From Polynucleobacter sp. HIN5 (lineage in GTDB: Bacteria > Pseudomonadota > Gammaproteobacteria > Burkholderiales > Burkholderiaceae): DNA of 64,000 nucleotides. The notes below the pieces were generated by a model that saw only the letters and a list, made by a program, of their open reading frames with translations, did no database searches and had not been told where the DNA came from. Of this stretch, positions 6,737-28,257 are shown piece by piece. Where the stretch lies: NCBI RefSeq assembly GCF_030297555.1, contig NZ_AP028136.1:372001-436000 (forward strand). The letters are read 5' to 3'. The translations under genes were made by a program, and so were the position numbers. Numbering within the stretch: the first letter of the stretch is position 1; the number at the start of each line of letters is the position of its first letter.

Positions 6737-6745
6737 GAGGCCCAA

Positions 6746-7240: not shown

Positions 7241-7251
7241 AGGAATTTGAG

Positions 7252-7518: not shown

Positions 7519-7544
7519 TGTCGTTTTAAAAGACATTTTTTTAT
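7517..7544 (+). terminator. Terminator of the copper operon
   Basis: ATGTC, then GTTTTAAAA, then GACAT followed by a T-run (7535-7541). It starts at the stop codon of the HMA gene. It resembles the palindrome at about 2718-2732 on the far side of the copper operon. Confidence 0.6.
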
Positions 7545-7612
7545 ATCGGTTGTCCAAATAAAGCGCTGAAAATAAACTTGCTGTATGAGTTCAAAACTTT
7601 TACAGCAAATTC

Positions 7613-8071: not shown

Positions 8072-8096
8072 TCTAACTATGAGGCGAGAAATTGTC

Positions 8097-8501
8097 TCAT
8101 AGTGATTTCACAGGTTGCGACAATTCGTTCAGAATTCCGCAATGAGCCGAGTCTTGATTAGCGTGGCACAGCTCCCTTAGCTCTCTTAATTGTTTTTCAA
8201 GTTGTTGTAAATCTTTTATGCGGTTGGTTACGGTTTCTATATGGGAATCAAGAAAATTATTAACAGAGCCGCAGTTTTCATTGGGCAAGTCCTTAAAACG
8301 AAGTAGTTGCCTAATTTCATTTAAAGCCATGTCCAATGAGCGGCAATGTCGAATAAACGTGAGGCGCTGTAAGTGCTGTTGGCCATAAATCCGAAAATTG
8401 CCTTCAGTTCTAGCGGGTTTAGGCAATAAACCCTCCTGTTCATAAAAACGAATGGTTTCTACTTGAGTATCTGTAACTTTGGCTAATTCACCGATTTTCA
8501 T
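8097..8501 (-). CDS. cadR: MerR-family Cd/Pb-responsive regulator (CadR/PbrR type)
   Basis: A 134-aa regulator. ATG 8501 is preceded by GAGGTG on the minus strand and is preferred over the GTG at 8510. The N-terminal winged helix starts MKIGELAKVT and contains ETIRFYEQEGLLP. After a dimerisation helix come Cys77 (NENCGS), Cys112 and Cys121 (LCHANQDSAHCG), the three thiols expected for Cd(II)/Pb(II) binding in this group. It is divergent from the P-type ATPase gene and very likely acts on the promoter at 8543-8573. Confidence 0.9.
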   Translation of the reverse strand: MKIGELAKVTDTQVETIRFYEQEGLLPKPARTEGNFRIYGQQHLQRLTFIRHCRSLDMALNEIRQLLRFKDLPNENCGSVNNFLDSHIETVTNRIKDLQQLEKQLRELRELCHANQDSAHCGILNELSQPVKSL

Positions 8502-8542
8502 TGGGTTCACCTCAATGGCATTTATTTAACTATTTTAATTTC

Positions 8543-8573
8543 TTGACTCTATAGCTACTATAGGCTTTTTAAT
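8543..8573 (+). promoter_or_regulatory. MerR-type promoter/operator for the metal ATPase
   Basis: TTGACT at 8543-8548 and TTTAAT at 8568-8573 are 19 bases apart, the long spacer that MerR-family activators act on. The spacer carries CTATAG twice around CTA (CTATAGCTACTATAG), a dyad like those of PbrR/CadR operators. Confidence 0.8.
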
Positions 8574-8605
8574 AGACAAATGTTAAAAATAGTTAGGTTA
8601 TTGAA

Positions 8606-10798: not shown

Positions 10799-10831
10799 AG
10801 TGTTTTAAGCAACGGTTAAGGGTTAGTGGAC

Positions 10832-10969
10832 ATGCTCAATCCTGGCAATCCCAGATCAATTTATCGAAAAAATCAAGCTAATTGTGATTTTTATCAACTT
10901 GCGAGATTGACAGACGCCAAAAATAAGATCTCAATGGAATATGCAGACATGATTGTTTTTGAAAATTAA
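10832..10969 (+). CDS. Small ORF, 45 aa, unknown function
   Basis: ATG 10832 to TAA 10967-10969, between the ATPase and the Met-rich protein, all in one direction. No membrane helix and no recognised family; one cysteine. The upstream AAGGG is a weak ribosome binding site. It may be a real small gene or the leftover of a longer one. Confidence 0.3.
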   Translation: MLNPGNPRSIYRKNQANCDFYQLARLTDAKNKISMEYADMIVFEN

Positions 10970-10990
10970 GCATTCAACAGAAGGAGCGCT

Positions 10991-11509
10991 ATGATGAAAA
11001 AGCTAGGATGGATTGCTGGTTTAAGTTTAGGTGTTTTATTGAGTACGCCCGTTTTAGCGCAATCAGCAGGAACGGGTACTAGGACTACGCAGACCCAACA
11101 AAAAAATGTTGATGTTGCAGAGTTTGACAAGCAGGCGGCTCAAATCCAGGAGAACTTTAAAAAGATGCAAGAGCAGATGGATAAGATTCGTGCCACTAAA
11201 GATCCTCAAGAAAGACAAAAGCTCATACAGAATCACTGGAACACAATGCAAGGCAATATGAATATGATGCAAGGCATGTGGAACTCGGGAATGATGGGGT
11301 GTTGTGGTGGCAATGGGGGCAAGATGGGCGGCCACATGATGGGTCCGATGATGGATTGGAATGGAATGAGTCCGTATTACTCCAAGTTAACTCCAGAGCA
11401 GTTAAAGCAACGCCAATACATGATGGAACAATACATGGGCATGCAACAAAATATGATGAATCAAATGATGCAACAAAATTATATATGGATGGATCAGCCC
11501 AAAAAGTAA
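10991..11509 (+). CDS. Met-rich exported protein, probable metal binding
   Basis: A 172-aa protein with a signal peptide ending VLA-QS and an AAGGAG ribosome binding site. Residues 40-85 are a charged, probably coiled helix. Residues 85-165 are extremely Met-rich (MQGNMNMMQGMWNSGMMG and the later MMEQYMGMQQNMMNQMMQQ) with two adjacent Cys and Gly repeats. Such composition suits Cu(I)/Ag(I) or other soft-metal binding in the periplasm. It follows the ATPase gene. The role is inferred from composition and context. Confidence 0.7.
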   Translation: MMKKLGWIAGLSLGVLLSTPVLAQSAGTGTRTTQTQQKNVDVAEFDKQAAQIQENFKKMQEQMDKIRATKDPQERQKLIQNHWNTMQGNMNMMQGMWNSGMMGCCGGNGGKMGGHMMGPMMDWNGMSPYYSKLTPEQLKQRQYMMEQYMGMQQNMMNQMMQQNYIWMDQPKK

Positions 11510-11641
11510 ATAGTGGGAGGCTAGGCTCTTGTACTTATCGTGAAATGATTGCCTAGTATCATATTAAGAAATATTCGGATCAGCAGATGAATTGTCCGTT
11601 GGTCCGCCTAATCCAATAAAGCCAATTATCAGCCTATTTTT

Positions 11642-12028
11642 ATGTATTTTGGAAGGTGTGCACGAATTAAAGAAGTGTGTAAAAATAAGACTGTGAAAAG
11701 ATTAATAATTCTCGCTGCTGTGTTTTTTATTGGGCTGCAAACGTCGTTTGCAGTAGTTGCGAGCTATTGCCTTCATGAGCAGTCCACCATTTCTCACCCG
11801 GGGCACCATGAGCATGACCATAAAGTGCCCACAGAAAAGGTCGGGTCAAATTTAGCTAATGATTCTGATTGCGGAACATGTCATTTAACCCACTCGTCCT
11901 TTTTCAACGAATCCAGCGTAAGTTATCTTTATCTAAATAAGCTTCACTTTGTAATAGCTATCGATCTGCATTTCCCCGATCTTAGTATCCCTCCGCCATA
12001 TAAGCCTAATTGGATTCCTCTCGCTTAA
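11642..12028 (+). CDS. czcI: CzcI-like periplasmic protein heading the RND operon
   Basis: Up to 128 aa from ATG 11642; GTG codons at 11675 and 11693 are alternatives, and the last gives a normal signal peptide beginning KRLIILAAVFF. The mature part has a His cluster (HPGHHEHDH), a CGTCH motif and a Pro-rich tail (IPPPYKPNW). Size, His/Cys content and place directly before a czcC-like gene match CzcI, a periplasmic modulator of czc expression in Cupriavidus. Confidence 0.7.
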   Translation: MYFGRCARIKEVCKNKTVKRLIILAAVFFIGLQTSFAVVASYCLHEQSTISHPGHHEHDHKVPTEKVGSNLANDSDCGTCHLTHSSFFNESSVSYLYLNKLHFVIAIDLHFPDLSIPPPYKPNWIPLA

Positions 12029-12103
12029 GTTGGCGAGAACCATCCCTAAACTCAACTAAAAAATTCTCGTCAACTCTCAATTGTTAAATCAAATGGAGTT
12101 GTT

Positions 12104-13390
12104 ATGTTTCGAGAGAAAATGCCGTTGTGGCGAAATTTTTCTGTTTGGATGCTTTGCATTCCATCGATATTCTGGTCAATATTTGCCTATGCCGATGATG
12201 CAAAGCTGAATAAGCGCGAATTAAAGTCCCTGTATGAAATAGCTTGGGAGCGTCAGCCTGAGTCAAAATCGTATCAATTCAGAGTGGATGCTGCATTAGC
12301 GAAGCAAAAGATTGCAAGTAGCTTCTTGGCTAGCCCTGCATCTATTGAGATCGCTCAAAAAACTGATAGAGCGAATAGCAATCAAGGTGCAAGCGAGACC
12401 ATTGCGGGTCTGGGCATCCCGCTTTGGTTGTGGGGTGAGCGCGCCAATTCTATCGGGTTAGCGGATGCTGAATATAAGAGATTGCTTTCTCAGTATCTTC
12501 TAATTCAACTGAAAGTGGCCGCTGAAGTTCGCGATGCTTACTGGTCATATAAACGATCTAGCGTAGAGTTAGATTTGGCTAATGGTAGATTTCAAAACGC
12601 AAAGGCACTAAGTTTTGATGTAGAAAAAAGATTTAGGGCTGGAGACTTATCGCGTGCAGATTTGCATCAAGCTAATGGCGCATTAGCCAATGCAGAAGCA
12701 AGTCTAGCTGAAGCTCAAGCCAACTTTATCAATGCAGAGCAAAAGGTTCGCTCATTGTTGGGTGTTGGTATGGTGGAAAAATCTATCAAGACCGGATTAT
12801 TAAATCAGCTTGCTGAGCCAATCCCAAAGGTTCCGGATAATTTATCGAGTCTAGATTTCAATTTACCAGTAGTAGCAGCATTACTTGATCAGCTTGAGGT
12901 AGCTAAGAAAGCAGTTTCACTAGCTAAAGCGCAAACGCGATCAACACCGGAATTGCAACTTCTGACAACAAGAGGGCGGGATGTTTATGGTGTTCCATTT
13001 CAACAATCCATTACTCTAGGAATACGCATTCCGTTTGGTTCGGATTCTCGCTATCAAAATAAATTAGCAACAACAACTGCTGAAATGGTAGAAGCTGAGT
13101 CGCAGTTGGCGCTTGAAAGGGAGAGGACTCTCTCGAATATTGAGTCAAGTGTTTTGCTGGTAAAGACTGCTCGACTAAAAGCCGACTCATCTGAAAAAAG
13201 AGCCGTATTGGCTAATGAAACACGATCTTTTTTTGAAAAGTCGTTTCGATTTGGTGAGACGGATTTACCTACAAGATTGCGTATTGAGTTAGAGGCATCG
13301 GATGCAAGCCGACAAGCTGCTGTTGCAAAAATTAATTACGCAGTGGCCATTTCAAATTTACGCCAAGCCCTTGGGCTGTTACCGGAATAA
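12104..13390 (+). CDS. czcC: CzcC-like outer-membrane efflux protein (TolC family)
   Basis: A 428-aa protein with a signal sequence (residues about 14-30) and two TolC-type repeats of long helices. The segment AEVRDAYWSYKRSSVELDLA and the later FRFGETDLPTRLRIELEA are typical of outer-membrane components of metal RND pumps. ATG follows a GGAG site. First structural gene of the czc-like operon. It should form the outer-membrane channel for the adaptor and pump encoded downstream. Confidence 0.88.
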   Translation: MFREKMPLWRNFSVWMLCIPSIFWSIFAYADDAKLNKRELKSLYEIAWERQPESKSYQFRVDAALAKQKIASSFLASPASIEIAQKTDRANSNQGASETIAGLGIPLWLWGERANSIGLADAEYKRLLSQYLLIQLKVAAEVRDAYWSYKRSSVELDLANGRFQNAKALSFDVEKRFRAGDLSRADLHQANGALANAEASLAEAQANFINAEQKVRSLLGVGMVEKSIKTGLLNQLAEPIPKVPDNLSSLDFNLPVVAALLDQLEVAKKAVSLAKAQTRSTPELQLLTTRGRDVYGVPFQQSITLGIRIPFGSDSRYQNKLATTTAEMVEAESQLALERERTLSNIESSVLLVKTARLKADSSEKRAVLANETRSFFEKSFRFGETDLPTRLRIELEASDASRQAAVAKINYAVAISNLRQALGLLPE

Positions 13391-13400
13391 GGATTTATCG

Positions 13401-13973
13401 ATGAATTATTTAAAACGCAAACTCATTCTACTTTCCGCAGTTATTTTTCTGTCAGCTGCGTCTGTAAACTTAGTTATTGCTGGTCCGGGCCATGATCATG
13501 ATGCTGGTCAAGCAGTTAATTCCGTTGGGGTAGCATTGCCCCGTTTTTATGCAGAATCTGATATGTATGAGGTTGTTGGTGTTTTCGATGAAAAGCTGAT
13601 TCGACTCTACATAGATCATTTTTTAACCAACAAACCTGTGAAAGCTGCACAAGTCAATATTGATCTAGACGGCCAAAAAATTGAGCTCAAAGAAGCTCCT
13701 GGCAATGTCTATGAGGGCCCTCTTGCTAAAAACTTAAAGGGTGATCTCGTGCCTGTAACTATCACCATTATTGATGGTGATGTAAGCGACATTATTGCAA
13801 CTACGTTTGTCAATCAACACACCAACTCTACAAAATTTAGCTGGTGGTTGGTTGCTAAGTTGGCGATCGGTGTATTGGTTCTGCTTGCGATTTCCTGGCG
13901 CTTTTACTCTAAACGCGGACAAATCATCCCGAAAATACAAAAAATACTTATGCAAATTAAGGATCGCAAATGA
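13401..13973 (+). CDS. Membrane-anchored periplasmic accessory protein of the RND operon
   Basis: A 190-aa protein. ATG 13401 after TAAGGA gives a proper signal peptide, so it is preferred over the longer frame from 13302. The mature start has GHDHD, then a beta-rich domain (RFYAESDMYEVVGVFDEKLIRLYIDHF), and one transmembrane helix near residues 152-170 with a basic cytoplasmic tail. It resembles extra periplasmic domains sometimes joined to CzcB-type adaptors but is separate here. It overlaps the adaptor gene by ATGA, pointing to joint action. Confidence 0.65.
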   Translation: MNYLKRKLILLSAVIFLSAASVNLVIAGPGHDHDAGQAVNSVGVALPRFYAESDMYEVVGVFDEKLIRLYIDHFLTNKPVKAAQVNIDLDGQKIELKEAPGNVYEGPLAKNLKGDLVPVTITIIDGDVSDIIATTFVNQHTNSTKFSWWLVAKLAIGVLVLLAISWRFYSKRGQIIPKIQKILMQIKDRK

Positions 13974-15004
13974 TTATCTTTATTACATTATTTAAACCTA
14001 TTTTGATTGCGGCCGTACTATTTTTTTTCAGTTTGTCATACGCAGGATCTGATCATGGGGATGAAAAGAATTCAACTGCTGCACTGAGTGTTGACACTCC
14101 CAAAAGGCAAGCCAATGGCAATCTTTTTATACCCAAGTTAGCGCAAAGGCAGTTGAAGGTTGAGACTGAATTGACTCAAGAGGGCGATTTTCCTAAAACA
14201 CTCGATTTGGCAGGCAAGGTCATGATGGATCCAAACTATGGCGGCAAGGTTCAAGCGATTGTTGCCGGAAGAATCACACCAGGACCTAAAGGATTTCCAT
14301 TGCCCGGGCAAAGTGTGACGAAAGGTGATGTGCTTGCTTACGTAACGCCAGAGGCTGGCCCTAGCGGTACCCGTTCTTTAGCTGAAAGCCGTTTAAAACG
14401 ATTGCGGGAGTTAAGTGATACCGTACCTCGCAAAACGATTGAGGAGGCTCAGGCCGCGGTTGCCAATGAAGAATTGAGAGCGCCTGTTTCGGGGATTATC
14501 TCGACGATGGGCATTGTTTCTGGGCAGGTGGTCGAGGCAAGGCAATTAATTTTCGAGGTAGTAAATCCAAGTCGATTATTGGTTGAGGCATTAGCTTATG
14601 ACGGCACTATGCTCAAAAATATATCTGGTGGATTCATTGAATATTCTGGAAAAACTATTGAACTTCAGTATTTGGGCGGAGGTCAATCTATGAGAGAGCT
14701 CGCACTTCCCATTACATTTTCTGGGAAAAATGATGATTTGCTAGGAATTCCTATTGGTCAACCGCTTAGAGTGTTTGTTAGTACTGAGACCAAATATAAA
14801 GGCTTCAAAATTCCATTCTCGGCAATTGTTAAAAATGGTGCTAATCAAAACATTGTCTGGATTAAGAAGTCGCCAGAAGAGTTTGAGCCAAAAGTAGTCT
14901 TATATGAGCCGCTCGATGGAAAGTATGTCGTTGTCACTTCAGGATTGTCTGCGCAAGATAGGGTTGTAAGTAGCGCAGCTTCCTTAATTAATCAAATTCG
15001 CTAA
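13970..15004 (+). CDS. czcB: RND periplasmic adaptor (CzcB/CusB family)
   Basis: A 344-aa membrane fusion protein with a signal sequence and an HGD segment. The lipoyl-like halves are visible around VQAIVAGRITPGPKGFPLPG and ELRAPVSGIISTMGIVSGQ, flanking a short helical hairpin, followed by a beta-barrel. The hairpin is short compared with typical adaptors. Translationally coupled to the gene before it and followed 8 bases later by the pump gene. Confidence 0.88.
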   Translation: MIIFITLFKPILIAAVLFFFSLSYAGSDHGDEKNSTAALSVDTPKRQANGNLFIPKLAQRQLKVETELTQEGDFPKTLDLAGKVMMDPNYGGKVQAIVAGRITPGPKGFPLPGQSVTKGDVLAYVTPEAGPSGTRSLAESRLKRLRELSDTVPRKTIEEAQAAVANEELRAPVSGIISTMGIVSGQVVEARQLIFEVVNPSRLLVEALAYDGTMLKNISGGFIEYSGKTIELQYLGGGQSMRELALPITFSGKNDDLLGIPIGQPLRVFVSTETKYKGFKIPFSAIVKNGANQNIVWIKKSPEEFEPKVVLYEPLDGKYVVVTSGLSAQDRVVSSAASLINQIR

Positions 15005-15012
15005 GGGCTACT

Positions 15013-18000
15013 ATGTTTACCTGGCTATTAAACTTTAGCTTGAAAAATCGTCTGATTGTCATCTTGATTGGATTAATCATCATGGCATACGGAGCATTTG
15101 CGCTCCAGAGCATGCCGGTAGATGTTTTTCCAGACCTCAATAAGCCAACCGTAACTGTAATGACTGAAGCTGGTGGAATGGCCTCTGAGGAGGTTGAGCA
15201 ATTAATTACATTTCCATTGGAAACGGTAATGAATGGTCTTCCGGGTGTCGAGTCAGTGAGATCAATTTCGAGCGCTGGACTCTCTTTTATCTACATCACC
15301 TTTAATTGGAGCACGGATATATATCGAGCCCGTCAAATGGTGAGTGAGCGTTTAAGCACAATGGAAAACACGTTACCCGATAGGGTTGTACCGCGAATGG
15401 GACCGATCAGCTCCATCATGGGCGAAATTATGCAAATTGCAATACCAATTGATGAGGCTAAGATTTCTCCAATGCAAGTTCGCGAGTATGCAGACTGGGT
15501 TTTAAGACCTCGATTAATGGCGATTCCTGGAGTTGCTCAGGTTATTCCAATCGGAGGTCAGGTCCGTCAATTTCAAGTCCAGCCTAATACGCGGCGAATG
15601 TCCGAGCTAGGGGTGACGGTATCGCAGCTGGAGGGGGTTCTTAGGGGGCATTCATCGAATACTTCTGGGGGCTTCATTGAGGTTAATAACAAGGAATACC
15701 TGATTCGTAACATTGGCAGAACTTCTAGCTTGGATGATTTGAGAAACTTGGCAGTCACAACAAAGGGTGGTCAGCAAATTTTGCTAAAGCAAATAGCTGA
15801 GGTTACATTTGCGCCAGCAGTTAAGCGAGGTGATGCTGGTTATGAAGGGGGTCCCGCAGTTATCTTGGGAATTCAAAAGCAACCATTGGCCGACACAATC
15901 GATTTGAGTTTAAAAATTGAAAATGCACTGAATCAATTAAAGCAAGGCCTTCCTGAAGGGATGAATGCGCCCAGAATGACGTTTAGGCAGGCTACATTTA
16001 TAGAGGCATCTATCAATACACTTGAGGGAAAACTGATTGGTGCTTCAATCTTTGTAGCAATTATTTTGTATCTGTTTTTGGGTACATTCAGGCCAGTTTT
16101 TATTTCATTGACTGCAATTCCAATATCGATATTAATCACTGCGTTAGTTTTTAAATACTTTGGTCTTTCCATTAACACTATGACCTTAGGAGGTCTTGCT
16201 ATTGCTATTGGTGGACTAGTGGATGATGCGGTTGTTGATGTTGAAAATATCATTCGCAGACTGAAAATCAATACCGATAAGCCAGAAGGTGAGCGTGTCA
16301 GCATTATTGAGGTAGTGCGGATGGCATCACTTGAAGTGAGAACCGGGATTATCTACGCAACTGCCATCATAGTATTGGTTTTTATTCCCTTATTTGCACT
16401 TTCGGGAATTGAAGGTAAATTGTTTACCCCTCTTGGGATAGCGTTTATAGTTTCTACGCTGGCCTCTTTGATCGTGTCGGTAACGGTTACGCCAGTATTG
16501 AGTTATTACCTATTGCCAGCCATGAAACAGGCTAGCCATGGAGATACCAAAATCCTAGTTTGGCTTAAATCGCATTACCAAATAATGCTCAATCGATTTT
16601 TGGTGGCGCCAAAAAGATATATTGTTTACGCCGCTTCCTTGGTTCTCGTTTCTGGGCTCAGCATTTTTGTAATGCCAACTGCTTTTTTGCCTCCGTTTAA
16701 TGAAGGGACATTATTGGTAGGTTTGAGACTCAATCCGGGGGTTGCCTTAACCGAATCTTCAGCGATTGCGCGGCAAGCTGAAGTACTTATTCGTCAAATC
16801 CCTGAGGTGACCTATGTTGGCAGAAGGAGTGGTCGCGCTGAGCTTGATGAGCACGCGGAAGGCGTACATGTTAGTGAGCTTGATGTGGGACTTAAGCCTG
16901 CAAAAGAATTAACAAGATCTATGGCTGATATTCAAGATGACATTCGAAAGAGATTGGTGAACTTACCTGCTGCGATTGCGATAGGGCAACCTATCTCACA
17001 CAGAATCGACCACATGCTATCAGGAGTGCGTTCACAAATTGCCATCAAGATTTTTGGTGATGACTTGGATATTTTGCGCAGTCAAGCAGATTTATTACGC
17101 TCAAAATTATCTGGAGTTTCAGGTCTCGTAGACTTAGAGATTGAAAAGCAAGTATTAGCTCCGCAAATTAAAGTACGAATTAATTATGACCTTGCATCGC
17201 AATATGGAGTCTCCACATCTCAAGTCATGGAGGTATTGCAGTCAATAGTAGAAGGGGAGCGCCTTTCTCAAATCATCGAGGGAAGTAAACGTTTTGGGCT
17301 TGTGCTGAAATTGCCAGAGACTTCTCGAACGCTTGATGGGTTGTCTGATGTTTTAATTGATACTCCGCTTGGAAGAATACCGCTTTCAAAGATTGCTTCC
17401 TTGGAGGATAGCGATGGTCCCAATCAAATTAGCAGGGATGATGGGAAAAGGCGAATTGTCATTTCTGCAAATACATCAAATAGGGCGTTATCTGACGTAG
17501 TAAAAGAAATTAGGGTTGTAGTCGATAATTTCCGTATGCCCGAAGGTTATTTCGTTACGTTAGGAGGACAATTTGTCGCTCAAGAAATGGCCTCTAAGTT
17601 GATTGGATTTTTATCAATTGGCTCATTGCTAATGATGTTTGCTGTACTTTATACAAAGTACAAATCAACCCTTTTTTCTCTCATGATTATGTCCAACATC
17701 CCATTGGCAATGATTGGCGCAGTCATTGGCTTATGGCTATCTGGTCAGCCACTGTCAATTGCCGCCCTCATCGGATTTATCACGCTAGCTGGTATCTCGG
17801 TGCGAAATGGAATCTTAAAAATAAGCCACTACCTAAATCTGATGAGGCTAGAGGGTGAGGCATTTAGTAAGTCAATGATAGTAAGAGGTTCAATTGAGAG
17901 ATTGTCACCAGTTTTGATGACAGCGTTAGTTACAGCATTCGCTTTAGCGCCTTTGCTTTTTGAGGCGGAACGGCCGGGAACGGAGATATTGCATCCTGTG

Positions 18001-18135
18001 GCGGTTGTAATTTTCTCTGGGCTTATTAGCTCAACCTTATTAGATACCTTTTTAACGCCGGCTATGTTTTGGCTCTATGGAAAGAAAGACGCTGAAAAAT
18101 CATTATTAATTACAAATGCACAAGAGGGATATTAA
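15013..18135 (+). CDS. czcA: Heavy-metal RND efflux pump (CzcA/CusA family)
   Basis: A 1040-aa inner-membrane pump with the usual two halves of 6 transmembrane helices and large periplasmic loops. The N-terminal PVDVFPDLNKPTV segment and the TM4 sequence AIGGLVDDAVVDVEN (around residue 395) identify the heavy-metal RND family. The TM4 motif is nearer the CusA-like pattern than the DFG pattern of CzcA, so the substrate (divalent Co/Zn/Cd or monovalent Cu/Ag) is open. Confidence 0.93.
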   Translation: MFTWLLNFSLKNRLIVILIGLIIMAYGAFALQSMPVDVFPDLNKPTVTVMTEAGGMASEEVEQLITFPLETVMNGLPGVESVRSISSAGLSFIYITFNWSTDIYRARQMVSERLSTMENTLPDRVVPRMGPISSIMGEIMQIAIPIDEAKISPMQVREYADWVLRPRLMAIPGVAQVIPIGGQVRQFQVQPNTRRMSELGVTVSQLEGVLRGHSSNTSGGFIEVNNKEYLIRNIGRTSSLDDLRNLAVTTKGGQQILLKQIAEVTFAPAVKRGDAGYEGGPAVILGIQKQPLADTIDLSLKIENALNQLKQGLPEGMNAPRMTFRQATFIEASINTLEGKLIGASIFVAIILYLFLGTFRPVFISLTAIPISILITALVFKYFGLSINTMTLGGLAIAIGGLVDDAVVDVENIIRRLKINTDKPEGERVSIIEVVRMASLEVRTGIIYATAIIVLVFIPLFALSGIEGKLFTPLGIAFIVSTLASLIVSVTVTPVLSYYLLPAMKQASHGDTKILVWLKSHYQIMLNRFLVAPKRYIVYAASLVLVSGLSIFVMPTAFLPPFNEGTLLVGLRLNPGVALTESSAIARQAEVLIRQIPEVTYVGRRSGRAELDEHAEGVHVSELDVGLKPAKELTRSMADIQDDIRKRLVNLPAAIAIGQPISHRIDHMLSGVRSQIAIKIFGDDLDILRSQADLLRSKLSGVSGLVDLEIEKQVLAPQIKVRINYDLASQYGVSTSQVMEVLQSIVEGERLSQIIEGSKRFGLVLKLPETSRTLDGLSDVLIDTPLGRIPLSKIASLEDSDGPNQISRDDGKRRIVISANTSNRALSDVVKEIRVVVDNFRMPEGYFVTLGGQFVAQEMASKLIGFLSIGSLLMMFAVLYTKYKSTLFSLMIMSNIPLAMIGAVIGLWLSGQPLSIAALIGFITLAGISVRNGILKISHYLNLMRLEGEAFSKSMIVRGSIERLSPVLMTALVTAFALAPLLFEAERPGTEILHPVAVVIFSGLISSTLLDTFLTPAMFWLYGKKDAEKSLLITNAQEGY

Positions 18136-19196: not shown

Positions 19197-20867
19197 TTAA
19201 AACAATCCAACTACCTTTCCACCAATCAAGTCAATCTTGTCAGCAGATGGGATTTTCGGCAAGCCCGGCATTGTCATAATATCGCCGCATACCATCACGA
19301 TAAATTGAGCGCCGGCAGCAAGGCGAACTTCCCTAATATTAATGACGTGGTTATTGGGCGCCCCGCGTAATTTGGCGTCGGTTGAAAAAGAGCTCTGTGT
19401 TTTAGCTACACATACAGGGTAATGACCATAACCCTTTTCTTGCAAGTCTTGAATTTGTGCTCGAATCTTTGAGTCCGCAGTAACTTCACTAGCTCGATAT
19501 ACCTTTTTAGCAATTTGATTAATCTTGTCCCAGAGGCTATCAGACTCTTCATATACAAATTGCATTTGAGATGGCGTGTCACAAAGTTTGATCACCTCTT
19601 CAGCAAGATCTTTAGCGCCTTTGCCGCCATGTGCCCAATGGGAAGCAATAACCACTTTTACTCCCAAAGATTGCATTCGCTTTTTAATAAGATCGATTTC
19701 TGCGGGAGTATCACTTAAGAATTGGTTGATTGAAACTACACAGGGTATTTGGTATACCTTTGTGATATTTTCAACATGGCGCTCTAGGTTGACCAACCCC
19801 TTTTCAAGGGCTGTTAGATTTTCTTGGGTTAATTCTGATAGTTCGGCATTTCCATGGTATTTCATAGCACGAACAGTCACCACAATCACAGCAGCAGAGG
19901 GGCGCAAGCCTGATTTGCGGCATTTGATATCAATAAATTTTTCAGCCCCCAAGTCGGCACCAAAGCCCGCTTCGGTCACCACATAATCGGCCAGTTTGAG
20001 TGCTGCTTGGGTTGCAATCACCGAGTTACATCCATGCGCGATATTGGCAAAAGGTCCACCATGTACAAAGGCTGGATTGTTTTCAAGGGTTTGAACAAGG
20101 TTTGGTGCCAATGCATCTTTGAGTAACACCGTCATAGCCCCATGAGCGTTGAGATCTTTGGCAAAAATAGGTTTTAGATCGCGGGTATAGGCAACTACGA
20201 TATTGGAGAGCCGTTCTTTAAGATCATCAAGCGACGTGGCTAAGCAGAATATTGCCATTACTTCAGAAGCAACTACGATATCAAACCCATCTTCACGCGG
20301 AAACCCATTACCTGGACCGCCAAGCCCATTAGTAATGTGCCGTAACGCGCGATCGTTCATGTCAACCACGCGTTTCCATTGAATTCGGCGGCTATCAATA
20401 CCAAGCGTATTGCCATGGAAGATATGGTTATCGATCAAAGCTGCCAAAAGATTATTAGCTAAAGCGATGGCGGAGAAATCGCCTGTAAAGTGAAGATTGA
20501 TATCCTCCATTGGTACGATCTGGGCATAGCCACCACCTGCAGCACCACCTTTTACTCCAAATACAGGACCAAGCGATGGTTCACGCAGGCAGATAATTGC
20601 TTTTTTACCTAGGTAGTTGAGGGCATCGCCAAGTCCAACAGTGGTTGTCGTTTTCCCTTCTCCAGCAGGCGTAGGATTAATCGCTGTTACCAGGATAAGC
20701 TTTCCATTAGGACGATTTTTTAGCGTTTCCAAGTAGGGTAGGGAAACTTTGGCTTTGAAGTGCCCATAAGGCTCTAAATATTCATCAGAAATTCCCAGTT
20801 TGTCTCTAGCGACTTCAGCAATACGCAACATTTTTGCTTGTTGTGCAATTTCGATATCACTGGGCAT
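19197..20867 (-). CDS. fhs: Formate-tetrahydrofolate ligase
   Basis: A 556-aa cytoplasmic enzyme: formate + ATP + THF gives 10-formyl-THF, reversible in vivo. ATG 20867 after GGAGAAACC is preferred over a 19-residue longer frame. The ATP loop [18 protein letters not shown] is near residue 65 and [14 protein letters not shown] follows; length is normal. It is divergent from the transporter/PanB-like operon, so both may share the control region 20868-20981. In block C it could make or use C1 units released or needed by the PanB-like enzyme; that link is inference. Confidence 0.95.
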
Positions 20868-20981
20868 GGTTTCTCCTAATTTAAGGGTTAATCCTGATAA
20901 ACAACACTTCCAATTTACTGACATTCAACTAATATGTTAGTAATATATATCAAGTGTTATTCATTACACAAGGAGACTTCG

Positions 20982-21821
20982 ATGAGTACTTTTTCTAAGC
21001 CGATGGTGATGACGGAAAGACAGAAGAGGTTTCGTGAGTCTTATGTGAATCAAATTAGTCCTTTTTATAACGGATTAATACACATTGGTGTGATGTATGT
21101 TGCCGGTTTAATTGCGATTTACTATTGCGCCAGTCAACTTAGTAATCCAACGTGGGCTTGGCTAACGATTATTCCAGTTGCGATCGCAGGAAACTTTGTA
21201 GAGTGGGCGATGCATAAGTATGTGATGCACCGTCTGATTGATGTATTTGCACTTAGGGCAATATATGACAGACATACACGTCAACATCATCAATATTTCA
21301 CCGATACAGACTACACCATTGACACAGTGAAAGAACATCGGATCGTCTTTTTCCCATGGCGGGTATTAATTGTTTTAGGTGTTGCAGGGACAGTTCTTGG
21401 ATACATAGCCTCAAAAATTTTTAATCCTAATGTTGGTTATATCTTGTATATGACGATGGTTGGTCACTACCTAATTTACGAAACATTTCATTACTGCTGC
21501 CATGTCAAGGAAAACTGGTTCGTACGTAATATGCCTTTTATTAATACGATTCGACGTCATCATGCCGCCCATCACAATCTTGGCATCATGATGCACAAAA
21601 ATATGAATCTAACATTCCCGCTCGCTGACTGGATTATGGGTACTAGTGATCTTAAGCGTGGCTTAGTTGGGACGCTCTTAAATGGATTTAATGAAGAGCA
21701 CGTCGATCCGAAACTAAGACCAATTGTTGAAAAATTTCGTAATGGTGGGGTACAAGAGGAAAAGGTCACCTTGGAGGGGCCAATTCTTGATCAACAGGAA
21801 CAAAAAGCGCTTCAATCATAG
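20982..21821 (+). CDS. Membrane di-iron hydroxylase, fatty acid hydroxylase/sterol desaturase superfamily
   Basis: A 279-aa membrane protein; ATG 20982 follows AAGGAG. Two to four hydrophobic helices (near residues 32-70 and 125-165) carry the histidine boxes of the superfamily: H78KYVMH83, H98TRQHH103, H161, H169 and H173, then HHAAHH at 192-197. These should bind two irons for O2-dependent hydroxylation of a lipophilic substrate. First gene of the operon running to 27964. The substrate is not evident. Confidence 0.8.
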   Translation: MSTFSKPMVMTERQKRFRESYVNQISPFYNGLIHIGVMYVAGLIAIYYCASQLSNPTWAWLTIIPVAIAGNFVEWAMHKYVMHRLIDVFALRAIYDRHTRQHHQYFTDTDYTIDTVKEHRIVFFPWRVLIVLGVAGTVLGYIASKIFNPNVGYILYMTMVGHYLIYETFHYCCHVKENWFVRNMPFINTIRRHHAAHHNLGIMMHKNMNLTFPLADWIMGTSDLKRGLVGTLLNGFNEEHVDPKLRPIVEKFRNGGVQEEKVTLEGPILDQQEQKALQS

Positions 21822-21830: not shown

Positions 21831-22412
21831 ATGCAATCAGTTCTATTCGATGTGTTACCAAAAGCTGGTCATGTCGAAGAGTACTTTTCAATGGCTGCTC
21901 ACCTAAAGCCAATCGTGGAGCAAAATCCAGGTTTTATCTCGGTTGAGCGCTTTGCTAATCTTCAGAAGAGAGATTGGTATTTGTCATTTTCCTGTTGGAA
22001 AGATGAAGAATCTTTGGCTCAGTGGCGTTGTCAACCTGACCATAATGGCGCACAAGTTTGTGGACGTAATAAGGTTTTTGATGATTATCGCCTTCGTGTT
22101 TCAGTATCAAACGAAGGGGGACAGATTAGTGAAAGTCCAAATCGCGAGCAAATTTTGTTGTTAATTGGTCGGTTTGATGAGGTTCAAACAATACTCACTC
22201 AAGCACCGCTCAGAGATTTTGCAAACAAATCATATCGAGGAGTTTTGGATCCCAACCGTGGAATCTCAATAATTGAGTTTTCACCAAACACATCAATTGA
22301 TCGCAAGCTGATCCAGTTATCAGTTGCAGATTCAATCAAATTATTTTGGTTCATGGTGCTGCGTGACTATGGAATGTTTGATCGAGCTGAGGCTCCAGCC
22401 CAATTTGCCTAA
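21831..22412 (+). CDS. Antibiotic-biosynthesis-monooxygenase-fold protein (N-terminal half)
   Basis: A 193-aa cytoplasmic protein. Residues 1-95 match the ABM dimeric alpha-beta fold (FISVERFANLQKRDWYLSFSCWKDEESLAQWR). The C-terminal half (about 105-193) is not recognised but has a similar beta pattern, so it may be a second degenerate copy. It starts 9 bases after the hydroxylase gene and overlaps the GntR gene by one base (TAATG). Enzymatic activity is not assured for this fold. Confidence 0.65.
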   Translation: MQSVLFDVLPKAGHVEEYFSMAAHLKPIVEQNPGFISVERFANLQKRDWYLSFSCWKDEESLAQWRCQPDHNGAQVCGRNKVFDDYRLRVSVSNEGGQISESPNREQILLLIGRFDEVQTILTQAPLRDFANKSYRGVLDPNRGISIIEFSPNTSIDRKLIQLSVADSIKLFWFMVLRDYGMFDRAEAPAQFA

Positions 22413-23101
22413 TGACAAATCGTAAATCCTCTAATCTTGCACTTGTTGTTTCTCCAGATGAGGCATCACTCTCTGATCGGGCTTATAGCCAGATTGAAGA
22501 AATGATTGTCACGATGCAGCTGCCTCCTGAGACTCCCATGTCCGAAGCGCAATTATCTAATTTTTTAGGTATCGGTCGAACTCCGATTCGTGAAGCAATT
22601 CAACGGCTAAGTCGCGAACATCTGGTCACCATTGTGCCAAAACGGGGAATTTTTATTTCAGACCTCAATACTGAAAAACAACTCCGCGTGCTTGAAACTC
22701 GTCGTGAATTGGAGCGATTGATTTGTAAAAAAGCTGCAAAAAGAGCGACCCCATCTGAGCGAAAAGAATTTGAACGTTTAGCAAAAGAATTTCGTAAGGC
22801 CGCTAAGGACAAAGATGATGTTTTATTTAGAAGAATTGATAAAGAGCTCAACGATTTGACCGTGCAGGCTGCTCGTAATGAGTTTGCGGCTGCTGCCATG
22901 TCTCCCCTTCATGGGATGTCTCGTCGTTTTTGGTTTGGAAATTTTCATCATTTTGCTGGCGTTACCGAGATGGCAAATTTGCACGGCACATTAGCTGCTG
23001 CTATTGCGAAAGGCAGTGAATCAGAGGCAGGCAAAGCTTTGGATGCATTAATTGACTGTGTTGAGAATTTGACACGTAAAACTTTTAATAATTCTGGGTA
23101 G
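22412..23101 (+). CDS. GntR-family regulator with FCD-type C-terminal domain
   Basis: A 229-aa regulator. The N-terminal winged helix (SDRAYSQIEEMIVTMQLPP, then the GIGRTPIREAIQRL recognition helix near residue 55) is followed by an all-helical domain of FCD type that normally binds a small carboxylate. It is embedded in the operon it probably controls, between the ABM gene and the TRAP transporter. By family habit it represses until the transported acid or an intermediate is present; the ligand is unknown. Confidence 0.88.
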   Translation: MTNRKSSNLALVVSPDEASLSDRAYSQIEEMIVTMQLPPETPMSEAQLSNFLGIGRTPIREAIQRLSREHLVTIVPKRGIFISDLNTEKQLRVLETRRELERLICKKAAKRATPSERKEFERLAKEFRKAAKDKDDVLFRRIDKELNDLTVQAARNEFAAAAMSPLHGMSRRFWFGNFHHFAGVTEMANLHGTLAAAIAKGSESEAGKALDALIDCVENLTRKTFNNSG

Positions 23102-23183: not shown

Positions 23184-24260
23184 ATGAAAAAACGTGAATT
23201 TTTAAAAACTGGTGGTGCGGTTGCGGCTGCAATGTCTTTTCCATTAACCGTTCAAGCGCAGGGAGCCACCTATAACTGGAAAATGGCAACTGGCTGGAGC
23301 GGAGGTCCTCTAATGGACCTTGGGGCAAAAGCATTTGCTGAAAAGATGGAGCAGTTTAGTGGCGGACGATTCAAAATTCAAACTTTTCCTGGCGGAGCCT
23401 TGGGTAATGCTTTAAAAGTGCCCGAGACTGTTAAAAATGGTGTGGCCGAACTCGGTCATACCTGGATGGGTTATGACTGGGGGAAAGATCCAACCACTGT
23501 TTTGTTTGGCGGGTATGCGGGTTCATTTGATTCAGAACGCATGTTGCATTGGCTATATGTTGCCGGCGGAACTGAGATGCAAAGAAAATTTCGTGAGCAG
23601 ACTGATGATGTAATTTCAATGCCATTATTTATTCGAACAGCCGAAGCATTTTTACATTCGAGAAAGCCAGTAAGAACCTTAAATGACCTTAAGGGCCTGA
23701 AGCTGCGAACTGCCGGAGCCTGGCTTGAAATGGCAAAAGATTTAGGTGCAGCCCCCGTTACAACAGCTGGTGGCGACGTGTATCCGATGCTAGAGCGGGG
23801 TGCTATTGATGCCACTGAATGGGGCACTCTCTATGAAAATATCCCAATGGGCTTTCACAAGGTTGCGAAATACATCATTTACCCAGGAGTTCATCAGCCA
23901 ACAGCGCCGTTTGAGCTTGTTATTAATAAGGCTGCATGGGCAAAACTCTCAGAGGCAGATAAGAAACTAGTTGATATGGTTGCTAAATTAGTTACCTTGG
24001 AAAGTTGGCTCAAGGTTGGTCAGGAGGATGCTAAGGCGCTTGATTTCTATCGTAAATCTGGTAACACAGTTATCGAGTTGTCCCCTGAGGTTCAATATGC
24101 GGCCCGGAAAATTGGACTTGACTGGGCCACTAAAACTGCTAAAGAGAATAAGTACCCATTCTTTGCACCAGTATTTGATAGCCAACAGGCGCTTGATAAG
24201 TTATGGGAGGGCGCCTCTGGCTGGAGATCAGTAAAAACAAAAGCAGTTAGTAGCAAATAG
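23184..24260 (+). CDS. TRAP transporter substrate-binding protein (DctP family)
   Basis: A 358-aa periplasmic binding protein with a Tat-like signal (KKREFLKTGG) ending VQA-QG. The substrate-binding signature appears in WKMATGWSGGPLMDLG and the middle KGLKLRTAGAWLEMAKDLGA, where the Arg in KLRT is the usual carboxylate-binding Arg. It should bind an organic acid for the DctQM permease encoded just downstream. Confidence 0.92.
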   Translation: MKKREFLKTGGAVAAAMSFPLTVQAQGATYNWKMATGWSGGPLMDLGAKAFAEKMEQFSGGRFKIQTFPGGALGNALKVPETVKNGVAELGHTWMGYDWGKDPTTVLFGGYAGSFDSERMLHWLYVAGGTEMQRKFREQTDDVISMPLFIRTAEAFLHSRKPVRTLNDLKGLKLRTAGAWLEMAKDLGAAPVTTAGGDVYPMLERGAIDATEWGTLYENIPMGFHKVAKYIIYPGVHQPTAPFELVINKAAWAKLSEADKKLVDMVAKLVTLESWLKVGQEDAKALDFYRKSGNTVIELSPEVQYAARKIGLDWATKTAKENKYPFFAPVFDSQQALDKLWEGASGWRSVKTKAVSSK

Positions 24261-24323: not shown

Positions 24324-24815
24324 ATGAATTCACTGGTCAAGAATATAGAACGAGTCACTGGTAATGTAGGCATACTTGCCTCATTTGCATTAGTCCCGCT
24401 AGTTTTGGCAACAACTTATGAAGTATTTGCTCGTTATATTTTTGAGGCGCCGACAGTCTGGGCTTATGAGGTTGGTTATGTACTGACTGGAACGCATTTT
24501 CTTTTGGGTATGGCATACACTCTGCAAAAAGGTCAATTTATTCGGATTGATATCTTTAGCCAGTCAATGACTGCAAAGACCAGGGCTTTGATCGATTTAT
24601 TTGCTTATTCTGTAGTTCTTCCGCTGATGCTTTGGCTGACATACGGCTTGGCCGCCCATTTAATTTCTGGATTTTTACGGAATGAGCGTAGCGGTCAGTC
24701 GGCAATGAATATGCCCGTATGGCCATTTCGACTTATTTTCTTGATTGCATTTGCTTTACTAGCTTTGCAAGTGCTAGCTGAAATTATTAAATCATTAAAA
24801 AAATACAAGGCATAG
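24324..24815 (+). CDS. TRAP transporter small permease (DctQ)
   Basis: A 163-aa membrane protein with four hydrophobic helices and the typical YEVFARYIFEAPTVWAYEV segment of DctQ. It lies between the binding protein and the large permease; its stop is directly followed by the start of the large subunit. Confidence 0.92.
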   Translation: MNSLVKNIERVTGNVGILASFALVPLVLATTYEVFARYIFEAPTVWAYEVGYVLTGTHFLLGMAYTLQKGQFIRIDIFSQSMTAKTRALIDLFAYSVVLPLMLWLTYGLAAHLISGFLRNERSGQSAMNMPVWPFRLIFLIAFALLALQVLAEIIKSLKKYKA

Positions 24816-26141
24816 ATGATGACTGAGATTTTGCCATTCTTGATGTTGCCAGTCGCATTTGTACTGATGTTTTTGGGTGTTCAAGTTGCTTTTTCAATGA
24901 TGATTACAGCAGTTTTATTTGGACTTCTAATTTTTAATGATCGTGTGATATTTCAATTTATTGAAAAAATTGAAGATATTTCATCTAATTTTGTATTTGC
25001 AGCAATTCCTTTATTTGTTTTCATGGGTGCCATTCTTGAAAAATCAGGAATCGCCGATAAATTATTTGAGGCTATTCATATTTGGACAAGACGGTTGCCT
25101 GGCGGTTTAGCGATTGCCACGATCACCATGTGCATTATTTTTGCAGCATCCAGTGGTGTGATTGGCGCTACTGAATCAGTGGTTGGTTTATTAACCATAC
25201 CAATCATGTTACGTTACAAATACGACAAAAGCCTTATTTCAGGATCAATTTGCGCTGGTGGATCGCTTGGGACGATTATTCCGCCATCGGTTGTGGCGGT
25301 TGTGATGGGCCCGTTAGCAAACGTTTCCGTGGGTGATTTATTGTATGGAATGTTGTTTCCTGGCCTAATTATGGCCTCCCTTTATCTCATCTATATATTT
25401 ACTCTTTGCTATATCCAGCCGGAAAATGGGCCAAGAATTCCGCCAGAGCCCGATGATCCTACGTTCTCAGAAAAAGTTTGGATATCAACAAAAAATTTAT
25501 TACCACCTTTATTGATGATCGTAGCAGTTTTAGGTTCAATTCTTTTGGGGTTGGCCTCTCCAACAGAGGCAGCTGCCATAGGGGCGATTGCATCTGTTCT
25601 TTTAACAGTTTTGTACCGTAATTTTAGTTGGAAGGGTTTATATGAAGCACTTATAAAAACTGTCCTAATTACCGCAATGATTATGGCAGTTCTCCTAGCT
25701 GGCTCGTTATTTACTGGAGTTTTTATTGGTGGCGGCGGAATTAATACTGCAAGTACTATTATCAATCAAATGCAATTAAGTCCTTGGATTCTTCTGGGAT
25801 TAATGATGTTAATCATTTTTATTGCTGGATTTTTCTTGGACTGGATCTCTATCGTATTAATTTTTGTACCACTTTTTACTCCGCTTGTAACTGCTGCAGG
25901 TTTTGATCCAGTATGGTTTTGTGTCTTGTTCCTCATCATGATTCAAACCTCATATCTAACCCCTCCCATGGCACCAGCAATTTTTTATTTGCGAGCTGTT
26001 GCACCAGAGGAAATTAATATCAAGCACATGTATAAGGGAGTTGTCCCATTTATTGGGCTTCAAATATTAACCTTAGTTGTTGTAATTATTTTCCCGTCTC
26101 TAGTGACTTATTTACCCAGCATTATGTTGAATTTTCGATAA
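24816..26141 (+). CDS. TRAP transporter large permease (DctM)
   Basis: A 441-aa inner-membrane protein with about 12 helices, carrying substrate by Na+-driven symport together with DctP and DctQ. Conserved DctM segments are visible: FVFAAIPLFVFMGAILEKSGI, GGSLGTIIPPSVV and YLTPPMAPAIFYLR. ATG 24819 is a possible second start. Seven bases separate it from the oxygenase gene. Confidence 0.93.
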   Translation: MMTEILPFLMLPVAFVLMFLGVQVAFSMMITAVLFGLLIFNDRVIFQFIEKIEDISSNFVFAAIPLFVFMGAILEKSGIADKLFEAIHIWTRRLPGGLAIATITMCIIFAASSGVIGATESVVGLLTIPIMLRYKYDKSLISGSICAGGSLGTIIPPSVVAVVMGPLANVSVGDLLYGMLFPGLIMASLYLIYIFTLCYIQPENGPRIPPEPDDPTFSEKVWISTKNLLPPLLMIVAVLGSILLGLASPTEAAAIGAIASVLLTVLYRNFSWKGLYEALIKTVLITAMIMAVLLAGSLFTGVFIGGGGINTASTIINQMQLSPWILLGLMMLIIFIAGFFLDWISIVLIFVPLFTPLVTAAGFDPVWFCVLFLIMIQTSYLTPPMAPAIFYLRAVAPEEINIKHMYKGVVPFIGLQILTLVVVIIFPSLVTYLPSIMLNFR

Positions 26142-26147: not shown

Positions 26148-27056
26148 ATGATGAGCCCGGAACAAATTTTGAAGATTCCAGCCCGTGTTTTGAGTCAAAA
26201 ACAACGCGAGGAATATTTTATAAATGGGTACATCCTTTTAGAAAAGTTTATTAGTGATGACTGGTTAGTTAAATTACGCGATGCTACGAACGAACTTGTT
26301 GAGCAAAGTAAAAAAGTTTCCAAGTCGGACACAATCTTCGATCTTGAGCCTGACCATACATCGTCTGAGCCACGTTTAAGGCGAGTCTCCAATCCCACTG
26401 AGCATCATCCAGTCTTTTGGGAATACGTTAGTAAGTCACCAATGCTTGATGCTGTTGCTGACTTAGTTGGACCCGATGTGAAATTCCACCATTCCAAGCT
26501 TAACTTTAAGTGGCAAAAGGGTGGCGAGGAGGTGAAATGGCACTACGATATTTCATTCTGGCCTCATACCAACTACTCACCATTAACAATTGGTACCTAT
26601 TTATACGATTGTGGAATGGATCAGGGGCCCTTGGGAGTGATCCCCAAAAGTCATTTGCTTGAGCCTATGATGAGTCAATATGATGAATCGGGGAAATGGG
26701 TTGGTTGTTTATCTGATGAGGATGTTAAAAAGATTCACATTGAAAAAGCCGTGTACTTGACTGGACCTGCCGGCTCATTAACCTTACATAATTGCCGGAC
26801 TATCCATGGGTCACCTGCAAATCAATCAAATTTAGGCAGACCATTGTTACTTTATACATTAACTTCTGCGGATGCATTTCCATATACTGTAAATCCATTA
26901 AAACCAAAACATGATCAGGTAATTCTGACAGGCAAGAGGGCTCAGTTCGCTCATCACGATCCATTGCCATGCCTCATTCCGCCTGATTGGTCAGGTGGGT
27001 ATTCATCGATTTTTTCGTTGCAGCAAAAAGAAGACGTAGAAAAAGCAATGATGTAA
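26148..27056 (+). CDS. Phytanoyl-CoA dioxygenase (PhyH)-family Fe/2OG oxygenase
   Basis: A 302-aa cytoplasmic enzyme; the start follows AAGGAGG. The iron triad is visible as His132-x-Asp134 (WHYD) and His220 (RTIHGSPANQ), with Arg231 (GRPLLLY) for 2-oxoglutarate. Members hydroxylate many small molecules, so the family does not give the substrate. Its place between the TRAP permease and the PanB-like gene suggests it hydroxylates the imported acid or a product of it. Confidence 0.85.
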   Translation: MMSPEQILKIPARVLSQKQREEYFINGYILLEKFISDDWLVKLRDATNELVEQSKKVSKSDTIFDLEPDHTSSEPRLRRVSNPTEHHPVFWEYVSKSPMLDAVADLVGPDVKFHHSKLNFKWQKGGEEVKWHYDISFWPHTNYSPLTIGTYLYDCGMDQGPLGVIPKSHLLEPMMSQYDESGKWVGCLSDEDVKKIHIEKAVYLTGPAGSLTLHNCRTIHGSPANQSNLGRPLLLYTLTSADAFPYTVNPLKPKHDQVILTGKRAQFAHHDPLPCLIPPDWSGGYSSIFSLQQKEDVEKAMM

Positions 27057-27076: not shown

Positions 27077-27964
27077 TTGAACATACCTGTTGGATCTGGA
27101 GCGATTGAAAAAAAGAAGCGAAATTTACAAGAGATTCGTGAGTCAAAAAAGACCGGCGAAAAAATGGTCTACATGTCAGTTCCTGATTACACCTCAGCGA
27201 AGTGGGCTGAAACAGCTGGAGTAGATGTTGCCGTCGTTGGTGACAGTCTTGCAATGATTGCGCATGGTCATCCCAATACAATACCTGCAACAATGGACAT
27301 GATGGTGATGCACGCAGCATCTATACGTAGGGGGGCACCTAATACATTTGTTTTAGGATGCATGCCATATCAAAGCTACAACACAGTTGATCGTGCACTA
27401 CAAAACGCTACGCGGTTCATGCAAGATGCTGCATGCGATGCGGTGAAGCCGCAGGGTGGGAAATCTCAAGCCCATATTTTGAAAGCTTTGGTTGACGCTG
27501 GAATTCCAACGGCATCCCACATTGGTATGACTCCCCATACAGTTGCAGTATTTGGAGGATTTCGAATTCAAGGAAAGACTGCTGAATCGGCTATGAAAAT
27601 TCTTGAAGATGCATTTGCCATTCAGGATGCCGGATGCTTCATGTTGGAATTTGAGGCTGTCCCTGCGAAGATTGCAACTGTTATATCAAAGCAGTTGGAA
27701 ATTCCGACTATTGGAATTGGTGCAGGCGTGGGAACTGATGGTCAAATTCTTCTTTGTCATGATCTTTTAGGTGTATTTTCTGACTTTAAGCCTAAATTTA
27801 CAAAACGATATGCTAACTTAACAGAGGTTGCTGTTAAGGGAATCAAAGAGTATATAAGCGAGGTTAAAGCCGGTAAGTTTCCTGATGATGATCACAGTTA
27901 TACAGTTGATGAAAAGGAATATGAGAAGTTTTTGGGATTGGTCGAAAGGCGAAAACACATTTAG
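27077..27964 (+). CDS. Divergent PanB-like enzyme (ketopantoate hydroxymethyltransferase family)
   Basis: A 295-aa protein of the PEP mutase/PanB barrel family. TTG 27077 lies 6 bases after AAAGGAG and is the preferred start. Aligned by eye to E. coli PanB, Asp45 is kept as Asp56 (VVGDSLAM), Lys112 as Lys124, His136 as His148 and Glu181 as Glu193, but Mg ligands Asp84 and Glu114 are Cys95 (LGCMPY) and Gln126 (VKPQGG). Canonical PanB makes ketopantoate from 2-oxoisovalerate and methylene-THF. The altered metal site and the import operon suggest a different or reversed reaction. A strong terminator follows. Confidence 0.8.
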   Translation: MNIPVGSGAIEKKKRNLQEIRESKKTGEKMVYMSVPDYTSAKWAETAGVDVAVVGDSLAMIAHGHPNTIPATMDMMVMHAASIRRGAPNTFVLGCMPYQSYNTVDRALQNATRFMQDAACDAVKPQGGKSQAHILKALVDAGIPTASHIGMTPHTVAVFGGFRIQGKTAESAMKILEDAFAIQDAGCFMLEFEAVPAKIATVISKQLEIPTIGIGAGVGTDGQILLCHDLLGVFSDFKPKFTKRYANLTEVAVKGIKEYISEVKAGKFPDDDHSYTVDEKEYEKFLGLVERRKHI

Positions 27965-27990: not shown

Positions 27991-28016
27991 GGCCACCAAT
28001 GGTGGCCTTTTTTATT
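27991..28016 (+). terminator. Terminator of the TRAP/PanB-like operon
   Basis: GGCCACC-AAT-GGTGGCC at 27991-28007, followed by a run of T. Confidence 0.9.
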
Positions 28017-28212: not shown

Positions 28213-28257
28213 CTCATAATCCTTTGGTCCCAGGTTCAAGTCCTGGTGGGCCCACCA
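28213..28257 (+). other. tRNA 3' relic 3, CAT anticodon (attachment site)
   Basis: CTCATAA at 28213-28219, TCCTT, perfect T-stem CCAGG/CCTGG around TTCAAGT, acceptor TGGGCCC, A and CCA at 28255-28257. No 5' half is present. The 24 bases 28201-28224 are identical to 18919-18942, but the T-stems differ from relic 2 with compensating changes. Ordinary chromosomal genes begin to the right, so this is probably the oldest junction. Confidence 0.85.

Follow-up and report, generated by a model that had tools for sequence, protein, structure and literature searches.

A PanB-like protein with altered metal-ligand positions in a TRAP transporter operon of Polynucleobacter sp. HIN5, and its possible role in one-carbon catabolism

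A 64,000-nucleotide stretch of Polynucleobacter sp. HIN5 (positions 372,001 to 436,000 of contig NZ_AP028136.1; hereafter the window) carries a gene for a relative of PanB, ketopantoate hydroxymethyltransferase (EC 2.1.2.11). This protein, hereafter the variant PanB, has Cys and Gln at two of the three positions which we take to hold the Mg ligands of PanB. The first-pass annotation had reported these two losses, and the observation is confirmed and stronger than first claimed. The variant PanB may be a tetrahydrofolate (THF)-linked one-carbon (C1, hydroxymethyl) transferase in the catabolism of an imported small 2-oxo or 2-hydroxy acid, with release as the likeliest direction and a remodelled metal site, an assignment made with slightly less than even confidence. 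In it, we infer the use of THF, the direction, the substrate and the metal.

Active-site residues and their conservation

The variant PanB has the PanB fold, scoring 318.4 against PF02548 (cut-off 28.7) and 282.3 against TIGR00222, the NCBI panB equivalog model (cut-off 207.55). A sequence alignment and a predicted model, in the same register, place Cys95 at the position of E. coli Asp84 and Gln126 at that of Glu114, as the first-pass annotation had read by eye. Since the two registers concur, Asp and Glu ligands masked by misalignment were ruled out. Asp56, Ser57, Lys124, His148 and Glu193 are all retained. A third change had been overlooked: Glu191 is an acid gained at E. coli Val179, and it sits on the strand whose end is the catalytic Glu193. 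The gene and its altered codons are:

27077..27964, + strand: variant PanB (PanB-like protein, clade I), by sequence, profile and model evidence
27359-27361, + strand: codon of Cys95
27452-27454, + strand: codon of Gln126
27647-27649, + strand: codon of Glu191

The Mg ligands of PanB are presumably Asp45, Asp84 and Glu114, of which the first is kept as Asp56. Likewise, Glu181 is assumed to be catalytic and Ser46 and Lys112 to bind the substrate; their equivalents occur in all 82 copies of the variant PanB described below. The earlier claim that the metal site must work differently goes further than the sequence does: Asp56 is kept, an acid has been gained in Glu191, and a metal other than Mg could be bound by Cys. 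The site may equally well have moved, changed or been lost.

Conservation was followed in the best 80 of 213 confirmed loci in other genomes, which hold 82 copies of the variant PanB (81 loci with the window), and in the best-listed 120 of 7444 homologues. Because both samples are the best matches of longer lists, the counts lean towards close relatives. Gln126 and Glu191 are found in 82/82 copies and Cys95 in 80/82, while Asp56, Lys124, His148 and Glu193, named as retained by the first-pass annotation, are each present in 82/82. Among the 120 homologues, Cys95, Gln126, Lys124 and His148 are invariant (120/120 each), followed by Glu191 (119/120, with one Asp) and Glu193 (119/120). None of the three new residues occurs in 24 canonical or less related PanB copies, all of which have Asp84 and Glu114. 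Across three proteobacterial classes, identity in the 80 loci is 80-94%; one locus, L098, is labelled Pelagibacteraceae. Within the phylum the gene is rare, with 2/398 genomes carrying it, the host genome counted. Judged by sequence, the residue pattern is conserved and the variant PanB is not a decayed gene.

In the phylogeny, a branch supported at 99/99 separates clade I from the rest, with the canonical PanB set placed elsewhere, bearing out the expectation that the Cys95/Gln126 proteins form a clade of their own. A sister clade II, about 51-54% identical, has Ala or Ser at position 95 together with Met125, Gln126 and Glu191, and both Cys95 exceptions among the 82 copies are its members. 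The case for Cys95 as an essential residue is therefore weakened. Clade II also occurs in two further Burkholderiales genomes, one of which (G672) carries the same stretch as locus L097, and its gene directly adjoins a second PhyH type in 3/3 genomes seen. The three copies of a distant clade III have, by alignment, Ser, Gln and Glu at E. coli positions 84, 114 and 179:

L119:6882-7772: clade III PanB-like gene
L120:7314-8216: clade III PanB-like gene
L121:7122-8024: clade III PanB-like gene, with a PhyH-like gene (31%) nearby

On these alignments, the loss of Asp84 accompanies Glu114Gln and Val179Glu in three clades. On a tree that comes with a long-branch warning, the Gln114/Glu179 pattern of clades I-III may have had a single or a multiple origin. 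Other PanB proteins were also seen. Clade V paralogues from Burkholderiales (about 40% identical; L122-L124 and L137-L150) retain Asp84 and Glu114, and clade IV PanB in L114 and L115 adjoins ABC transporter genes. The Enterococcus faecium plasmid L181 (NZ_CP066401.1) has a panBCD operon amid insertion sequences, its PanB having the canonical Asp and Glu.

A second PanB with canonical residues is encoded elsewhere in the HIN5 genome. The first-pass annotation had proposed a search for it next to panC; both panB and panC are present outside the operon of the variant PanB (a single PanC), and the canonical panB lies beside a folK-like gene. That canonical panB and panC lie elsewhere argues against pantothenate synthesis as the main role of the variant PanB, and this reading was set aside. 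A second PanB at 35-38% identity was found in 7/7 clade I genomes of a survey of relatives (the host, five other genomes of the genus and G070), its residues being examined in the host genome. The pantothenate-enzyme naming given by the NCBI models is probably wrong for the whole clade.

Operon and genomic neighbourhoods

The variant PanB gene is the last of eight genes with gaps of -1 to 82 bases, next to a divergent gene for formate-tetrahydrofolate ligase (Fhs):

19197..20924, - strand: Fhs, divergent from the operon (PRK13505, 897 bits, cut-off 652)
20934..21821, + strand: FAH-like membrane protein with a His-rich di-iron hydroxylase pattern (by eye)
21831..22412, + strand: ABM-domain protein (profile match)
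22412..23101, + strand: GntR/FCD regulator (profile matches)
23184..24260, + strand: DctP, TRAP solute-binding protein of TakP / lactate-binding type (profile, structure-relative and residue comparison)
24324..24815, + strand: DctQ, TRAP small permease (profile match)
24816..26141, + strand: DctM, TRAP large permease (profile matches)
26148..27056, + strand: PhyH-family Fe(II)/2-oxoglutarate oxygenase (PF05721, 98 bits)
27991..28007, + strand: terminator-like hairpin and T run at the operon end; 6 such sites were found in the region against 6.3 expected from shuffles

The FAH-like protein has no Pfam match, and its true start is probably inside the open reading frame (ORF). The closest solved relatives of the PhyH protein are the ectoine hydroxylases EctD (3emr, E 1.6e-16).

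The structures nearest to DctP are 2zzv and 2hzk, which we take, from their chain names, to be the lactate-binding TTHA0766 and TakP. Four of the six residues of the TakP 2-oxo-acid site are kept in DctP (Arg175, Tyr97, Glu212 and Trp213). Across 38 DctP homologues, the matching TakP residues Arg177, Tyr100, Glu214 and Trp215, which belong to those given for pyruvate and cation in the consulted part of PMC1839085, are kept in 38, 37, 38 and 38 cases. By its residues, the site points to a 2-oxo or 2-hydroxy acid ligand, the class on which PanB acts. The Liv-type binding protein found at other loci gave no clear hint of a substrate.

A gene was counted as a neighbour of the variant PanB when its tblastn match reached 40% identity and 50% coverage. 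Flanks shorter than 6.5 kb, on one side or both, are found in 37 of the 81 loci, and corrinoid counts include fusions. GntR and FAH genes are the most frequent (61 loci each), followed by TRAP permease (38), DUF6166 (29), PhyH (28), a corrinoid-binding domain (16), a Liv-type ABC binding protein (12), a corrinoid fusion (11), an FAD oxidoreductase (10), a cysteine-dioxygenase-like protein (8) and a PanE-like protein (6). Restricted to the 44 loci whose flanks both reach 6.5 kb, the counts are FAH 39, GntR 36, TRAP 23, PhyH 18, ABC 8 and fusion 7. TRAP and PhyH genes were thus rejected as constant neighbours (38/81 and 28/81), contrary to the suggestion that the gene always sits beside them. 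TRAP can give way at some loci to a Liv-type ABC importer, or PhyH to a corrinoid methyltransferase, and 28/81 loci have neither importer within the available flanks. The cysteine-dioxygenase-like cupin (for instance L037:9619-10242) possibly hints at a sulfur-containing substrate.

Among the 38 TRAP loci, 24 have PhyH only, 9 a UroD-corrinoid fusion only, 1 both and 4 neither (Fisher 4e-5). A tree-aware test has just 3 independent pairs on supported branches and is without significance, so the counts give a hint that PhyH and the fusion are mutually exclusive alternatives. One member of the fusions was scanned, and its N-terminal part matched nothing in Pfam or the PDB; "UroD-like" is our own reading of this part. 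A separate gene in L090 does match URO-D. On plasmid pMNOD02 of Methylobacterium nodulans, genes for a FAH homologue (48% identical to that of the window and annotated as sterol desaturase family), DUF6166 and panB lie near each other on one strand. Two parallel modules stand side by side in L156:2115-15865 (the same as L097), one with the clade II gene, PhyH2, GntR, TRAP and FAD oxidoreductase, the other with the clade I gene, GntR, FAH, TRAP and PhyH1.

Fhs genes were found in the window, L054 and L056, and FolD genes in L037, L050 and L157. Formate dehydrogenase subunits are encoded in L160 and L074 (L162 being the L074 contig), and methylenetetrahydrofolate reductase (MTHFR) in L037, L043, L049 and L090. 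Within the set of 81 loci alone, THF or formate genes are found in 11, corrinoid or UroD genes in 16 and either kind in 19; two of the 11 (L083 and L091) are counted on a 33-34% identical MeTr-like match alone. In a control, 0/12 neighbourhoods of other PanB paralogues carry any of these genes. Among genomes of the genus, Fhs occurs in 5/6 with the variant PanB vs 3/55 without it (Fisher 5.4e-5, kinship ignored). Overall, the neighbourhood looks catabolic, with one-carbon genes.

Proposed reaction and rival explanations

In the proposed pathway, the substrate would be a small 2-oxo or 2-hydroxy acid taken up by a TRAP or Liv-type ABC importer. A methyl group of the acid would be oxidised to hydroxymethyl by PhyH, the membrane hydroxylase or both, and the variant PanB would unload the hydroxymethyl onto THF. 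From there, FolD, Fhs and formate dehydrogenase would carry it on to formate and CO2. The Mg site would be remodelled, with Asp56 retained, Cys95 and Gln126 in place of Asp84 and Glu114, and Glu191 added. Either another metal might be held by Asp56, Cys95 and Glu191, or the reaction might be less reliant on help from an enolate, as it would be with a hydroxymethyl carried by a heteroatom. The latter option would fit the corrinoid methyltransferase replacing PhyH in some loci, an exchange that is suggestive only. According to PMC7770189 (section 10), the metal aids enol formation. As described in the part of PMC10127515 consulted, E. coli ketopantoate hydroxymethyltransferase, with Co, carries out aldol addition of 2-oxo acids to formaldehyde, and ethylenediaminetetraacetic acid was used against the retro-aldol reaction, a precaution which implies that PanB chemistry is reversible. 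The first-pass annotation had argued for a new or reversed reaction instead of pantothenate synthesis. The catabolic context and the canonical panB elsewhere agree with this, but it is the fit to the context that suggests the direction. The reversed (retro-hydroxymethyl) reaction appears to be the best of the available readings.

Several points weigh against a THF-linked release. Enolate chemistry on a hydroxymethyl bound to carbon is difficult to reconcile with missing metal ligands. In the available flanks, 62/81 loci are without a THF, formate or corrinoid gene, and the control of 12 neighbourhoods, which missed the 31% PhyH in L121, is too small to decide. Within the genus, Fhs adjoins the variant PanB in the window only; the two are on separate contigs in the drafts G001, G037, G050 and G054 (contigs being large in G050), and G010 has the variant PanB without Fhs. 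Fhs can also run in the assimilatory direction. Finally, DctP differs from TakP at two site positions, with Gln238 for Glu240 and, by eye, Glu154 for Gln156.

A forward reaction is an unlikely alternative: methylene-THF, made from formate by Fhs/FolD, would donate its hydroxymethyl to some imported 2-oxo acid, ketoisovalerate excepted, and PanE-like reductases would act next in some genomes. The chemistry would be the same as that of PanB, Fhs stands beside the operon and a PanE/ApbA-like gene lies near the variant PanB in 6/81 loci; the importer, the GntR/FCD regulator, the oxygenases and formate dehydrogenase have a catabolic look which this leaves aside. Given a similarly small chance is a C-C lyase of the phosphoenolpyruvate (PEP) mutase/isocitrate lyase type, which would no longer use THF and would cleave the PhyH product with Lys124 and Glu191 as acid/base pair. 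This superfamily has a fold similar to that of the variant PanB at 9-18% identity. However, its metal-binding Asp and Glu (Asp85 and Glu114 of PEP mutase), which we equate with Asp84 and Glu114 of PanB, are the very positions lost to Cys and Gln, and the THF, formate or corrinoid genes in 19/81 loci would be left unexplained.

Two further explanations are very improbable. An ordinary pantothenate PanB with neutral substitutions would account for the NCBI panB equivalog cut-off being passed, but not for the separate clade, the catabolic neighbours, the invariant new residues or the other PanB in the host and the surveyed clade I genomes. A non-catalytic binding or regulatory protein of PanB descent would explain why two metal ligands are gone; against it stand Lys124 and His148 in every copy of both samples, Glu193 in all but one of the 120, and the identity of at least 80% kept across three classes in 80 loci. 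Returning to the THF-linked release, a bolder form of it is regarded as doubtful: the variant PanB would be metal-independent or metal-switched, and the hydroxymethyl made by PhyH from the methyl of a 2-oxo or 2-hydroxy acid would pass directly to THF. This would be a new route of demethylation by oxygenase and THF, island-borne and interchangeable with the corrinoid methyltransferase route.

Compared to PanB itself (1m3u, 1oy0), the variant PanB differs by Asp84 to Cys, Glu114 to Gln and the new Glu at 179, as well as by its own clade, its catabolic context and the canonical copy elsewhere. The following comparisons concern the consulted parts of the papers. Corrinoid, methyl-THF and MetF2 modules (MtgBCD / MetF2) serve glycine betaine demethylation in marine Proteobacteria (PMC12478193). 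A corrinoid protein, methyl-THF transferase, RACo-like activase, MTHFR and DUF1638 likewise stand beside the variant PanB in L037, L043, L049 and L090, but the methyltransferase there is of UroD type and not MtgB, and the consulted parts of that paper do not mention the variant PanB, PhyH or TRAP. DUF1638 and a RamA-like protein are tied to B12-dependent methionine synthesis in PMC5764234, and the same kinds of parts adjoin the variant PanB in these four loci. The pAO1 purU-mabO-folD operon (PMC3891541) also loads C1 from demethylation onto THF with FolD alongside, the MABO oxidase standing where the present system has PhyH and the variant PanB. PMC10041152 and PMC12542648 mention ordinary panB genes. 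In the open-licence PMC literature, searched by title or abstract start, no description of the system was found, other print being outside this scope.

Genomic island and significance

The operon and Fhs lie in the left part of the window, together with the following features:

978-2339: recombinase-like ORF (by eye), without a Pfam match
7613-8071: partial copy of the N-terminal part of the recombinase-like ORF
4572-18135: metal-efflux cassette with multicopper oxidase, MerR regulator, heavy-metal P-type ATPase, and RND efflux pump with HlyD-type partner
28222..28257, + strand: 36-base direct repeat resembling a tRNA 3' end (by eye), probable right border of an island

Two exact copies of the 36-base repeat lie outside the window, one 3.9 kb to its left (genome position 368118) and one 1.1 kb (370870). 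The first is immediately preceded by a group I intron (L179:3882-4107; RF00028 in Rfam, 58.3 bits), downstream of a sigma-70-like gene, and the second by similar sequence. ARAGORN found no tRNA gene at the first copy, where the neighbouring intron may interrupt one. Between the repeats lie the recombinase-like ORF, the metal-efflux cassette, Fhs and the operon of the variant PanB. Profiled over 15-36 kb, the GC content shifts near 29 kb, from 0.39-0.44 before this point to 0.46-0.50 after it. Positions 1-28257 of the window together with genome positions 368118-370905 are thus a probable genomic island bounded by the repeats. Based on the repeats, the gene content and the GC shift, the operon and Fhs probably arrived together on this island of about 29 kb. 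Spread by transfer would be consistent with 80-94% identity across classes.

If the proposed role is true, freshwater, soil and marine Proteobacteria would have recruited a PanB-type enzyme for C1 catabolism. Its active site would be a test of how far PanB chemistry depends on Mg, and the compact gene set lends itself to tests in cultured strains.
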